Below, piece by piece: positions 31,190 through 35,160 of a stretch of 64,000 nucleotides of DNA. This DNA is from Haloplanus natans DSM 17983. GTDB lineage: Archaea; Halobacteriota; Halobacteria; Halobacteriales; Haloferacaceae. A program made the position numbers and the translations under genes. The notes below the pieces were generated by a model. That model worked only from the letters and a program-made list of their open reading frames with translations, had not been told where the DNA came from and did not search any database. The stretch lies in assembly GCF_000427685.1 (NCBI RefSeq), contig NZ_KE386573.1, positions 1,968,938 to 2,032,937 of the forward strand, given 5' to 3'. How positions within the stretch are numbered: the stretch's first letter is position 1; each line of letters begins with the position of its first letter.

Positions 31190-31780
31190 TTATGTCGTCT
31201 TGCGTGTGCCGCGTTCGAGCGCCGCCGTGCCGGTCCGGACGATCTCGTGGATGCCGAACCGACCGAACGTCTCCACCGCGGCGTCGATCTTCTGCTCGCT
31301 GCCCGTGATCTCGACGGTGACCGACTCCCGGGAGACGTCGACGGTCTTGCCGTCGTACATCTCCGCCACGGCGCCGACCTGATCGGGGGCGCTCCCGTCG
31401 ACCTTGATCAGCGCGAGTTCGCGCCGGATGGCGTCGGGTTCGAGTTCGGTCACCGCGATGACCGGCACGAGCTTCTGTAGCTGTTTTTTCGCCTGTTCGA
31501 TGCCCGGTTCGGGCTCCTCTATTTCGAGCGTGATTCGCGCTCGGTCACCATCGGTGGTCGGACCGACGGTGAGGCTTTCGATATTGAACTGCCGCCGCCG
31601 GAACAGTCCGGAGACGTTCGCCAACACGCCGGGTTCGTGTTCCACGAGCGCCGAGAGAACCGCCCGCCGGGCGTCGGGCTCCGCCTCCACCTCGGGGTCG
31701 ATGCGGATGCCCTGGGAGTTGCGCCGGCCCTCGGGCGTCTCCCGCTCCTCGGGTCGTGGACCGTCCAGCCCGCCGCTCAT
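31190..31780 (-). CDS. ilvN: Acetolactate synthase small (regulatory) subunit
   Basis: Regulatory subunit that binds branched-chain amino acids and controls IlvB. The 196-residue protein has a charged N-terminal extension (1-35), an ACT domain beginning [33 protein letters not shown] (about 40-72), and a C-terminal ACT-like domain. Feedback inhibition is expected from the family. ATG 31780 overlaps the ilvB stop by four bases. Confidence 0.94.
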
Positions 31781-33537
31781 AGCTGCTCCTCCGAGAGGGC
31801 GAATTTGTCGTTGGCGCCGCCGCTCGGCACCATCGGGTAGACGTTCTCGGCGGGGTCGATGTGGAAGTCGACGACCGAGGGGCCGTCGTAGGCGAGCGCC
31901 TCCTCGACGGCGTCGGCCACCTCGTCGTAGTCGTCGACGCGCCAGCCGCGGGCGCCGAAGGCCTCGGCCAACTTGTCGAACTCGGGGATCCAACTGTAGC
32001 CGGCGGCCATGTGTCGCCCCTCGAAGAAGGCGTCCTGCCACTGGCGCACCATTCCGATGTACTCGTTGTTCAGGATGGCGACCGTGATGTCGAGGTCCTC
32101 GCGCACGGCGACCGAGAGCTCCTCGACTGTCATCAGGAAGGAGCCGTCGCCGTCGATACAGACGACTTCCTCGTCGTCGTCGGCCGCCAGTCGGGCGCCG
32201 ATGGCCGCGGGCAGGCCGTAGCCCATCGTCCCGAGGCCGTGCGAGGAGACCCACTTCCGCGGGTCGCGGAACGTCCAGTACTGGGACGCCCACATCTGAT
32301 GCTGGCCGACGCCCGAGGTGACGATGGCGTCGTCGCTCGTGGCCTCGTCGAGCGCCTCGACGACGAACTGCGGTTTGAGCGGTTCGTCGTCCGGCGCCGC
32401 GTAATCCATCGGGTACTCCGTCTTCCACGTCCGACACTGCTCGCGCCACTCGTCGGCGTCGGGCGCGGCGGTCAGCGCGTCGTCGAGCTGTCCGAGGACG
32501 CGCCCCGCGTCGCCGATCAGCGGGTAGTCGGCGTGGATGTTCTTGCTGATCTCCGCGGGGTCGATGTCGACGTGAACGACCTCCGCGCTCGGCGCGAACG
32601 TCTCGATACCGCCGGTCAGGCGGTCGTCGAATCGGGTGCCGACGGCGATCAGGAGGTCCGTGTGGTTGATCGCCATGTTGGCGTAGCCGGTGCCGTGCAT
32701 GCCCGCCCACGACAGACAGAGCTCGTGGTCCTCGGGCATCGTGCCGATACCGGGCATCGTCGTCACCACCGGAATCTCGTAGTCGGCGGCGAACTCGCGG
32801 GCCACGTCCGCGGCGTCGGCTTTCACCACGCCGCCGCCGAACAGGAGCAGCGGTTTGTCCGCCGCCTCGATGGCGCTCGCCACCGTCTCGACGGCGCTCT
32901 CGTCCGCTTCGTCCTGTGGCGTGTACGTCTCCGGCGTCTGGGGCATCCCCGGTTCGCGGTCCGTCTCCCCGCTGGTGACGTCCTTGGGGAGGTCGACCAG
33001 CGTCGGCCCCGGCCGGCCGGCGGAAGCGAGCGCCACCGCCTCGCCGACGGTGTCGCCGACGGTGTCGGCGTCGCTCGCGAAGTAGTTGTTCTTCGTGATC
33101 GGTGCGGTGATGCCCGTCGTGTCCGTCTCCTGGAAGGCGTCGCTGCCGACCATATGCTGGGGCACCTGCCCGGTCAGCGCCACCACGGCGTCGGAATCCA
33201 TGTTGGCGTCGGCGAGTCCCGTCACGAGGTTGGTCGCGCCAGGACCCGAGGTAGCCAGGCAGACGCCCGGCTGGCCGGACACCACGCTGAACGCGTCGGC
33301 CGCGTGAGCCGCCCCCTGTTCGTGGGCCATCATCACGTGACGGATCTCCGAATCCCAGAGCGCGTCGTAGACGGGCATGATCGCCCCGCCCTGCACGCCG
33401 AACATCACGTCGATGCCCGCGTTCTCGAGGGCTCGAACGGTGGACGTAGCGCCCGACGTGACTTGTGTCGGGGCCCCGTCGGCCGCCTCGTCGCTCGACT
33501 CCTCCGTCTCCGGTGGTTGGGTGGTTCGCTCGCTCAT
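31777..33537 (-). CDS. ilvB: Acetolactate synthase large subunit
   Basis: ThDP-dependent enzyme condensing pyruvate with pyruvate or 2-oxobutyrate, the first committed step. The 586-residue protein has GVQGGAIMPVYDAL, the catalytic Glu in HEQGAAHAADAF (about 72-83), and the ThDP-binding GDGSFLMTVEEL...NNEYIGMVRQWQ at about 455-495. First enzyme gene of the ilvBNC-orf-leuCDB operon. About 220 nt of probable mRNA leader, with a small ORF and hairpin, precede it. Confidence 0.96.
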   Translation of the reverse strand: MSERTTQPPETEESSDEAADGAPTQVTSGATSTVRALENAGIDVMFGVQGGAIMPVYDALWDSEIRHVMMAHEQGAAHAADAFSVVSGQPGVCLATSGPGATNLVTGLADANMDSDAVVALTGQVPQHMVGSDAFQETDTTGITAPITKNNYFASDADTVGDTVGEAVALASAGRPGPTLVDLPKDVTSGETDREPGMPQTPETYTPQDEADESAVETVASAIEAADKPLLLFGGGVVKADAADVAREFAADYEIPVVTTMPGIGTMPEDHELCLSWAGMHGTGYANMAINHTDLLIAVGTRFDDRLTGGIETFAPSAEVVHVDIDPAEISKNIHADYPLIGDAGRVLGQLDDALTAAPDADEWREQCRTWKTEYPMDYAAPDDEPLKPQFVVEALDEATSDDAIVTSGVGQHQMWASQYWTFRDPRKWVSSHGLGTMGYGLPAAIGARLAADDDEEVVCIDGDGSFLMTVEELSVAVREDLDITVAILNNEYIGMVRQWQDAFFEGRHMAAGYSWIPEFDKLAEAFGARGWRVDDYDEVADAVEEALAYDGPSVVDFHIDPAENVYPMVPSGGANDKFALSEEQL

Positions 33538-33644
33538 TGTCGTAAGCTGTACGTCGGTGGCTGTCGGTGTGAATGATTCATTGTCGTGTGGCCATGTGGC
33601 TCCCTGTGTACGGTACGGTCACGTCCGCGGAGGATGAGTTGTGA

Positions 33645-33660
33645 GGGGCTATACAGCCCC
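33645..33660 (-). promoter_or_regulatory. Hairpin in the ilvB mRNA leader
   Basis: On the transcript strand GGGGCT-GTAT-AGCCCC, a 6-bp GC-rich stem. It extends to about 10 bp with one bulge through flanking TGTA and TCACA. The stop codon of the leader ORF lies inside it, so a ribosome finishing the leader would cover or melt the stem. No U-run follows directly. Confidence 0.55.
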
Positions 33661-33753
33661 TACAATCGGGCCGATCGAACCGTCGACGCCGCGACGACCC
33701 GCTACTGGGTCGGCACTCGCGGTCGAACCCCGGGTCTGATCGAACCCTCGCAT
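33649..33753 (-). CDS. Candidate ilv leader peptide (34 aa)
   Basis: A 34-codon frame on the ilvB strand, ATG at 33753 and TAG at 33649-33651. The ATG lies about 30 nt from a TATA-like box, so the transcript would start essentially at this codon and be translated leaderless. The last 12 residues are VDGSIGPIVGAV: five of twelve are Val or Ile, with GTA used three times and ATT once in the whole frame, codons that are rare in this GC-rich genome. The stop codon sits in the loop and 3' edge of a hairpin. The arrangement resembles an amino-acid attenuator; function is unproven. Confidence 0.5.
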   Translation of the reverse strand: MRGFDQTRGSTASADPVAGRRGVDGSIGPIVGAV

Positions 33754-33778
33754 CGTATTCGGTGAATCCCGCTCCGCA

Positions 33779-33788
33779 GATATAATCC
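33779..33788 (-). promoter_or_regulatory. TATA-like box of the ilv-leu operon
   Basis: GGATTATATC on the minus strand, about 30 nt before the leader ORF ATG at 33753 and about 246 nt before ilvB. It is the best TATA-like match in the 400-nt gap between leuA and ilvB. Confidence 0.6.
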
Positions 33789-33938
33789 TTTCCGTCGAGA
33801 ACGGCGACTCGGAGCGCCCTCCGTGCCGTATGCGCCACCCGCCGCTCCACGGCTGGAGCGAACGGGGGCGACCCCATCATAGCGATGCGGGCGGTGTGCC
33901 GGGGCGGCCGCGAACGCGGGTGGCGACGGCCATCGCTC

Positions 33939-35160
33939 TCAGGCGCGGACCTCCTCCTCGCGGGTGACGTTCTCCTCGCGGGCGAACCGCCGCAGGTCCG
34001 CCATCGTCACCCGCTCCTTGTCGGCGCCGTAATCCTTGACCAGTCGGGTGACCGCCCGGACCTCCGAGTCGGTCGGGTCGTAGCCGATTTCCTTCAGTCG
34101 CTTGCGCACCGAGTGGGTCCCGGTGTGTTTGCCGAGGACGAACTCGCGGGTCGCGCCCACCATCTCCGGTGTCATCACGCCCGGTTCGAACGTGTCCGAG
34201 TTCTCGATGACGCCTGCGGCGTGGATACCGCTCTCGTGGGAGAAGGCGTTGCGCCCAACGACCGGCTTGTTCGGCGGATTGGGGATGTCGCTGTAATCCT
34301 CGACCATCCGGGACAGTTCCGTGATTCGGGTGGTGTCGATCCCCGTGTCCACGTCGTACAACGCCTCCGAGGCCATGACGACCTCTTCGAAGGCGGCGTT
34401 GCCGGCGCGTTCGCCGATGCCGTTGACCGACACCTGTGCCTGCGCCGCGCCCGCCTCGAAGCCGGCGATGGCGTTCGCCGTCGCCAGCCCGAAGTCGTCG
34501 TGGGCGTGGACGTCGACCTGCGCGTCGGTGTTCTCGCGGACCATGCGCACGAGGTCCATAAAGCGCGTGGGCGTCGCCACCCCGCAGGTGTCCGGAATGT
34601 TGATCCAGTCGGTCCCCGCGTCGCTGACCGCCTCCACCACCTCGACGAGGAAGTCGTCGTCGGTGCGGGTGGCGTCCATCGGCGAGAACATACACTCCAC
34701 GCCCGCCTCCTTGACACGCTCGACGCATTTGACCGCGCGGTCGACCGCCTCCTCGCGCGAGGCGTGCATGGAATCCTGTAGCTGTACGTCGCTCGTACTC
34801 ACGAAGACGTGGACCAGTTCCACGCCCGAGTCGAGCGCCGCCTCCACGTCCTTGTCGACGACGCGAGCGAGGCCACACACCGTCGTGTCGGTGGCGTTCG
34901 AGATGTCTCGAACGGCCTCGAACTCCGCGTCGGAGTTGACCGGGAACCCCGCCTCGATGACGTGGGTGCCCATCTCGTCAAGGACTGCGGCGATGTCACG
35001 CTTCTCGTCGTAACTGAACGACGTGCGCGGTGACTGCTCGCCATCTCGGAGCGTTGTGTCGAAAATTCGTACACCGTCAATTTCGCCGGTGCGGGCCAAC
35101 GTGCCCTGGAAGAACTCGATCCGCCGGGGTATCCGACGAATCCTCCATGTCGTTAGACAT
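33939..35160 (-). CDS. leuA: 2-isopropylmalate synthase, apparent frameshift at the 5' end
   Basis: Condenses acetyl-CoA with 2-oxoisovalerate, first step of the leucine branch; (R)-citramalate synthase is a close alternative. From IEFFQGTLARTGEIDGVRIFDTTLRDGEQSPRTSF onward the frame is intact, with VDVHAHDDFGLATANA (metal-binding HxH), GIGERAGNAAFEEVV and HESGIHAAG. This frame has no ATG or GTG before IEFF. The only well-placed start, ATG 35160 about 30 nt after a good TATA-like box, lies in another frame that meets it at the CCCC run (35126-35129). Either one or two bases are missing in the assembly, or the gene is inactivated. The catalytic part is otherwise full length for the family. Confidence 0.85.

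Follow-up and report, generated by a model that had tools for sequence, protein, structure and literature searches.

The ilvB operon of haloarchaea is probably regulated by a leader peptide that reads the charging of tRNA. A short open reading frame (ORF) at the head of the transcript ends on rare isoleucine and valine codons at the foot of an RNA hairpin, and a ribosome held on these codons would keep the hairpin from forming. We put the probability of this whole explanation, including its inferred output, at about 0.77. Its sensor part, in which the element acts as a ribosome-sensing leader peptide of haloarchaea, is well supported by how its sequence is conserved. The promoter position, the ORF, its control codons, the hairpin, a second short ORF (uORF2), their conservation and the use of the element before valS are all read from the DNA. 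The earlier note had suggested an attenuator-style leader at this position. That suggestion is supported because the test set beforehand, that of conservation in relatives, did not count against it: a comparison of ilvB upstream regions shows that the class Halobacteria has retained the ORF with its Ile-Val end, its rare codons and the hairpin. The kept ORF and codons are joined by cognate codons in the leaders of valS, pheS and trpS.

The leader ORF and its control codons

All features described here are on the minus strand of the window, by which we mean the whole 64,000-nt stretch of Haloplanus natans DNA that was analysed. Its first gene, ilvB (31777-33537), encodes the large subunit of acetolactate synthase (NCBIfam TIGR00118, E 7.5e-208), and the run continues as (ilvN), ilvC, leuC, (leuD) and leuB, the genes after ilvB being identified by their translations. 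Upstream, with a separate promoter, lies leuA1 (33939-35117, minus strand), assigned by its ORF and family match to the 2-isopropylmalate/citramalate synthase family. A GC-rich palindrome, GCTCCAGCCGTGGAGCGGCGGGTGG, occupies about 33866-33835 between leuA1 and the ilvB promoter, and several relatives within the genus have a similar sequence at the same place.

The TATA-like box of the operon promoter, ATTATAT (33786-33780), stands about 32 nt ahead of an ATG at 33753. This ATG opens uORF1 (33753-33649), whose 34 codons encode MRGFDQTRGSTASADPVAGRRGVDGSIGPIVGAV and end in a TAG at 33651-33649; box, start and ORF are all as originally described. We compared 92 ilvB loci: 80 come from named haloarchaea and 12, the window among them, from the window's genus; one species is represented twice (L002 and L093). 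All of them have GTAGGGG ahead of ilvB, and its GTA always shares the frame of an ATG further upstream. The uORF1 frame has an open ATG within 36-165 nt upstream at 92/92 loci; the two remaining frames have one at 0/92 and 10/92. The best AT-rich hexamer begins 32-33 nt ahead of the uORF1 ATG in 71 of the 92 loci and is perfect at this position in 42, whereas a random-position control gave 0. A box about 32 nt before the ATG would place the 5′ end of the transcript at or next to the start of uORF1, making the message leaderless. Beyond these loci, a covariance model of the element (R1) matches 379 of 391 genomes of the class. Searched against about 245 genomes of the same phylum outside the class, R1 returned only three weak matches (E 0.02-0.05), which we took as chance and rejected as further instances.

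The end of the peptide is far more constrained than the rest. It reads Ile-Val-Gly-(Ala/Val)-(X)-stop in all 92 loci save one with Val-Val-Gly, and many uORF1s end in Leu-Ile-Ile-Val-Gly-Ala; the stop normally falls 3-4 codons past the GTA but 8 codons past it in several Natrialbaceae. Within the window's genus, the body of uORF1 changes at 0.29, 0.36 and 0.36 by codon position, with no synonymous-site bias. Such equal change suggests that the body is a spacer and that the end alone is constrained, as in bacterial leader peptides. The proposal that the final 12 residues form a Val- and Ile-rich end therefore holds for the last residues, IVGA/V, and not for the 12-residue end as a whole. An unconstrained body would also be expected if uORF1 had arisen merely by chance within an untranslated leader. 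This explanation is extremely unlikely, however, as it leaves unaccounted for the in-frame conservation at 92/92 loci (0/92 and 10/92 for the remaining frames), the choice of rare codons, the R1 matches in 379/391 genomes of the class, the presence of the element before valS and the cognate codons ahead of pheS and trpS.

Codon choice at this end is fixed as well. GTA GGG is invariant in 92/92 leaders. The ilvB genes at these loci, in contrast, contain 4061 Val codons, of which 15 (0.4%) are GTA. The codon preceding it is ATT in 79, ATC in 12 and GTA in 1 of the 92; ATT makes up 6.7% of Ile codons in the ilvB genes. The pair ATT GTA at 33666-33661 in the window was thus rightly called rare. 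This fixed synonymous choice bears on an alternative in which sensing falls to the nascent peptide: its C-terminal IVGA(V) would arrest the ribosome at or near the stop when a small molecule such as free Val or Ile binds in the exit tunnel, in the manner of TnaC. Conservation of IVG(A/V) by the stop above a variable body is what such a peptide would leave, but the peptide would have no need of GTA in 92/92 loci. Moreover, the stop lies mostly 3-4 but in several loci 8 codons after the GTA, valS leaders retain only the V-G of the motif (FVG, VVG), and the pheS and trpS leaders are different peptides, each rich in its own amino acid. We consider an arrest peptide improbable.

The GTA is retained even where the 3′ arm of the hairpin cannot pair with it, so pairing alone does not explain its presence. 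The invariance of GTAGGGG could alternatively reflect a bound protein, with a regulator recognizing either the RNA hairpin or a DNA operator palindrome, GGGGC-N-GCCCC, common to ilvB and valS. The very high nucleotide conservation and the sharing of the element by these two genes are in keeping with such a site. Yet the arm spacing varies by 3 bp and more, which is unusual for an operator; the ATG frame, the stop codon and the TATA spacing are retained across loci; and the layout recurs ahead of pheS and trpS, where the sequences differ and the codons are those of each gene's own amino acid. Taken together, these points leave a protein site with little likelihood.

The hairpin, the second ORF and the likely output

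The uORF1 stop is held in a hairpin, AGGGGCT-GTAT-AGCCCCT (33661-33644), and the TAG straddles its loop and 3′ arm, in agreement with the earlier placement of the stop inside a stem. Across loci, stems around the uORF1 stop score 16.5 compared with 9.6 ± 0.4 when the flanks are shuffled; as a control, stems at uORF2 stops score under their own shuffles. Folded over its full 223 nt, the leader shows no unusual stability relative to shuffles (z -0.55), and a scan of 33300-34100 with Rfam 15 gave no match at E <= 1, T-box included. As the arms, GGGGC and GCCCC, are almost invariant, covariation is limited. It is seen in the loop-closing pair, which changes from C-G to U-A in 6 of 74 sequences (for example, GGGGUCUAACCCC versus GGGGCCUAGCCCC), and in some sequences the stop switches from TAG to TAA together with this change. 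Where the stop has moved downstream, the hairpin persists as GGGGCG..CGCCCC (for example, L040, L047 and L074).

Downstream of the hairpin is a G-poor tract of C, U and A (33648-33629), with 3-5% G over its first ~12 nt across the 92 loci. Every clade has such a G-poor C/U tract after its hairpin, and some (Halobellus, Halohasta and Halonotius) have runs of U; neither the window nor its genus has the U-run of an intrinsic terminator. Folding of each clade with alifold gave no terminator/antiterminator pair or other mutually exclusive structure for ilvB, and masking the hairpin left the predicted accessibility of the uORF2 and ilvB starts unchanged. A recurring box, CACCGUUUUC or CRCACCGTTTTC, is found about 45 nt past the hairpin in the ilvB leaders of Haloferax and Natrialbaceae.

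We also considered long-range pairing between uORF1 and the ilvB start. Overall it reaches -18.0 kcal/mol, whereas control regions give -18.5 and -19.2 kcal/mol, and in the window it is weak (z -1.2), so that as a general feature it was rejected; the lead is confined to one lineage. In Natrialbaceae, for example at loci L046, L052, L074 and L078, the uORF1 segment GCGTTCGCTYCGATT is complementary to the ilvB start ATCGATGAGCGAACGC at a predicted -23 to -29 kcal/mol, and this pairing is a possible start-codon mask in Natrialbaceae only.

The earlier note had left a gap of about 110 nt before ilvB. The spacing is right, but the gap is not empty: it contains uORF2 (33581-33534, minus strand), which encodes MNHSHRQPPTYSLRQ and had been missed. 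Its TGA overlaps the ilvB start codon as ATGA (33537-33534). This overlap with an open uORF2 is present at 75 of the 87 loci in which ilvB has an ATG start, whereas shuffled spacers give 11.1 ± 2.5. An upstream stop thus overlaps a downstream ATG, as in termination-reinitiation pairs. In Haloferax volcanii, the ATGA gene overlaps tested showed strict translational coupling (PMC6728339). This precedent and the conserved overlap, taken together, indicate by analogy that translation of ilvB probably depends on ribosomes that complete uORF2.

From this arrangement we infer that uORF1 is translated, that ribosomes stall on it, in which direction regulation works and by what step it reaches ilvB. 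The transcript would start at or beside the ATG at 33753, and ribosomes would load on its 5′ end and translate uORF1. Near the end of this ORF, a ribosome would reach the rare ATT GTA at the foot of the hairpin, with the stop codon in the loop region. When the charging of Val- or Ile-tRNA is low, it would stall there, cover the 5′ arm and prevent the hairpin; when charged tRNA is plentiful, it would terminate and depart, and the hairpin would reform. Hairpin formation would in this way serve as the readout of tRNA charging. An open hairpin would allow ilvB expression in one of two ways: transcription would run on through the G-poor tract instead of stopping there, or ribosomes would engage uORF2, whose translation the ATGA overlap would link to that of ilvB.

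Between these outputs we lean slightly towards uORF2 coupling as our best guess, by analogy with coupled gene pairs. The other output leads to classical transcription attenuation, in which the ribosome would control an archaeal terminator, formed by the hairpin or an alternative structure, and uORF2 would have no role. This is a version of the leader explanation and its confidence overlaps with that given above. It would make sense of the G-poor C/U tract seen past the hairpin in all clades, of the U-runs in Halobellus, Halohasta and Halonotius, and of the CACCGUUUUC box that recurs in Haloferax and Natrialbaceae some 45 nt further on. It remains doubtful, as the window and its genus lack a U-run, no terminator/antiterminator alternation was found and the ATGA overlap of uORF2 is too conserved for an idle ORF. 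Because a U-run terminator is absent and no alternation was found for ilvB, membership in the bacterial transcription-attenuator type is not established.

Leaders before other genes and the start of leuA1

Many genomes of other families carry a second copy of the element, and nearly all sampled cases precede valS. The 11 distinct valS leaders (L190, L191, L193-L195, L197-L199, L201, L202 and L221) contain GTA, usually as GTA GTA or Val-Phe-GTA, and never have Ile before the GTA. Val codons are therefore common to the ilvB and valS leaders, whereas Ile codons come in only with ilvB, which belongs to the pathway for both amino acids; this pattern fits the prediction of tRNA-charge sensing. The regulon is patchy, as no valS leader was found in the window's own family and none was seen before ileS or leuS. 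In one genome (L192, G246), a second leader copy ending in LIVGV and a stop lies ahead of an apparently broken ORF.

The pheS gene is preceded by a small ORF ending in a GFGFFF-like run in 28 of 37 sampled loci, and Phe-rich leaderless uORFs of this kind are found at L236, L238, L239, L241-L243 and L293-L317. In the window's genome, the pheS leader reads MATEPTTTDSLAREAPALGFGFFFSP and then stop (L243, G000:C7, about 3.26 Mb). Hairpins in the pheS stop region score 14.2 compared with 12.0 ± 0.56 for shuffled sequences and differ in sequence between genomes; a possible second pairing was judged by eye only. A conserved motif, YGGA-stem-GRCGAAA, follows the hairpin in pheS leaders. Ahead of the second trpS, Trp-rich uORFs were found in 2/2 genomes, beginning MNTAPWRWWSP (L267, G079) and MAFALEWRWRV (L268, G281) and carrying WRWW and WRWR, respectively. 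The pheS and second trpS leaders share the layout of the ilvB leader with unrelated sequences. No Trp leader was found before haloarchaeal trpC in 10 genomes. The trpC promoter (L281-L290) has an overlapping palindromic element resembling GTACA..TGTAC, which is probably a repressor operator.

Short ORFs are therefore found in the leaders of an amino-acid biosynthesis gene (92/92 ilvB loci) and of the aminoacyl-tRNA synthetase genes valS, pheS and second trpS. Codons for the cognate amino acid hold a constant position ahead of an RNA hairpin: Ile-Val in the ilvB leaders, Val in those of valS, Phe in those of pheS and Trp in those of trpS. The hairpin statistics cover ilvB and pheS. That the valS, pheS and trpS leaders bear codons cognate to their own genes is a prediction of a codon-sensing leader.

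Upstream of the operon, leuA1 has an unusual start of its own. A TATA box stands about 32 nt ahead of a leaderless ATG at 35160, which opens a frame (35160-35077, minus strand) that reads MSNDMEDSSDTPADRVLPGHVGPHRRN up to its stop and is +1 out of frame with LeuA. An out-of-frame ATG is found at 88/88 haloarchaeal leuA1 loci (the relatives being among L002-L092), and a TTWAW or TTAAW box lies upstream in 78 of the 88, mostly at -32 to -35. In the part of the LeuA frame that runs from the nearest upstream stop to the conserved domain, 76/88 loci have no ATG and 37/88 have no ATG, GTG or TTG. Where the frames overlap, CGAGTTCTTCNAGGG is invariant in all 85 aligned loci; the overlap consists of CGA, the rare Val-Leu codons GTT CTT, then CCA or CGA (CAA in one) and GGG. 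CUU is a classical +1 slip codon, with bacterial prfB and yeast Ty1 as examples. A transposon insertion in H. volcanii leuA1 causes isoleucine auxotrophy (PMC4300041), so the gene is functional. A functional gene behind an out-of-frame ATG makes a conserved programmed +1 frameshift at GTT CTT the simplest reading, a candidate drawn from sequence that is possibly tied to the supply of Val and Leu. An unusual start codon may serve instead.

A broader claim brings these leaders together. Haloarchaea may have a general leaderless leader-peptide system (Ile/Val for ilvB, Val for valS, Phe for pheS and Trp for the second trpS), which would be the first attenuation of its kind known in Archaea, with a translational output coupled through uORF2 rather than a U-run terminator, and with a programmed +1 frameshift at GTT CTT in leuA1. 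We give this combined claim an even chance. No report of archaeal leader-peptide attenuation was found in the open-access papers searched. Should the system work as proposed, leader peptides would govern branched-chain biosynthesis and several tRNA synthetases throughout an archaeal class, and leaderless mRNAs would have a function in regulation. The coupling of transcription to translation, or of one translation event to another, could then be tested in archaea with simple reporters in H. volcanii, a genetic model.

Comparison with known systems

Ribosome-sensing leader peptides are textbook regulation in bacteria, where Phe- or Trp-rich peptides are encoded ahead of pheST (pheM), trpS and the trp operon. 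The haloarchaeal pheS and second trpS leaders resemble these in their richness in Phe and Trp, whereas the domain of life and the sequences differ. Where the bacterial trp operon has a leader peptide, haloarchaeal trpC instead has a promoter palindrome (10 genomes). T-box riboswitches govern valS, ilv and pheS in Gram-positive bacteria, with tRNA charging as their signal; the haloarchaeal leader would share these target genes and this signal, but it has no visible tRNA-binding RNA and no Rfam match at E <= 1.

The bacterial ilv/leu attenuators, including ilvL, leuL and the uORF of Corynebacterium ilvB-II, are alike in having a short leader ORF before the biosynthetic gene, branched-chain codons, rare codons and a hairpin at the end of the ORF (PMC10272879). 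In contrast to these attenuators, the haloarchaeal uORF1 is leaderless, running from the 5′ end of the transcript, and it has only one to four control codons and a stop inside the hairpin; no U-run terminator/antiterminator was found, and a second uORF overlaps the ilvB start. This overlap has its counterpart in the termination-reinitiation pairs of H. volcanii, which share the ATGA; the pairs tested there were overlapping genes, whereas the partner of ilvB is a short uORF of variable sequence (PMC6728339).

Closest to the synthetase leaders are the uORFs that a 2016 study of H. volcanii transcription start sites placed in long 5′-UTRs, among them one of 26 aa for pheS and one of 23 aa for trpS (tryptophan--tRNA ligase) (PMC4983044). 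It lists no ilvB uORF, a point against the leader explanation, although its search covered only 5′-UTRs of 150-250 nt. Its section on these uORFs notes no cognate codons, hairpins, regulation or function. The 26 aa of its pheS uORF (PMC4983044) equal the length of the Phe-rich, 26-residue leader that we found in a Haloferax-like genome.
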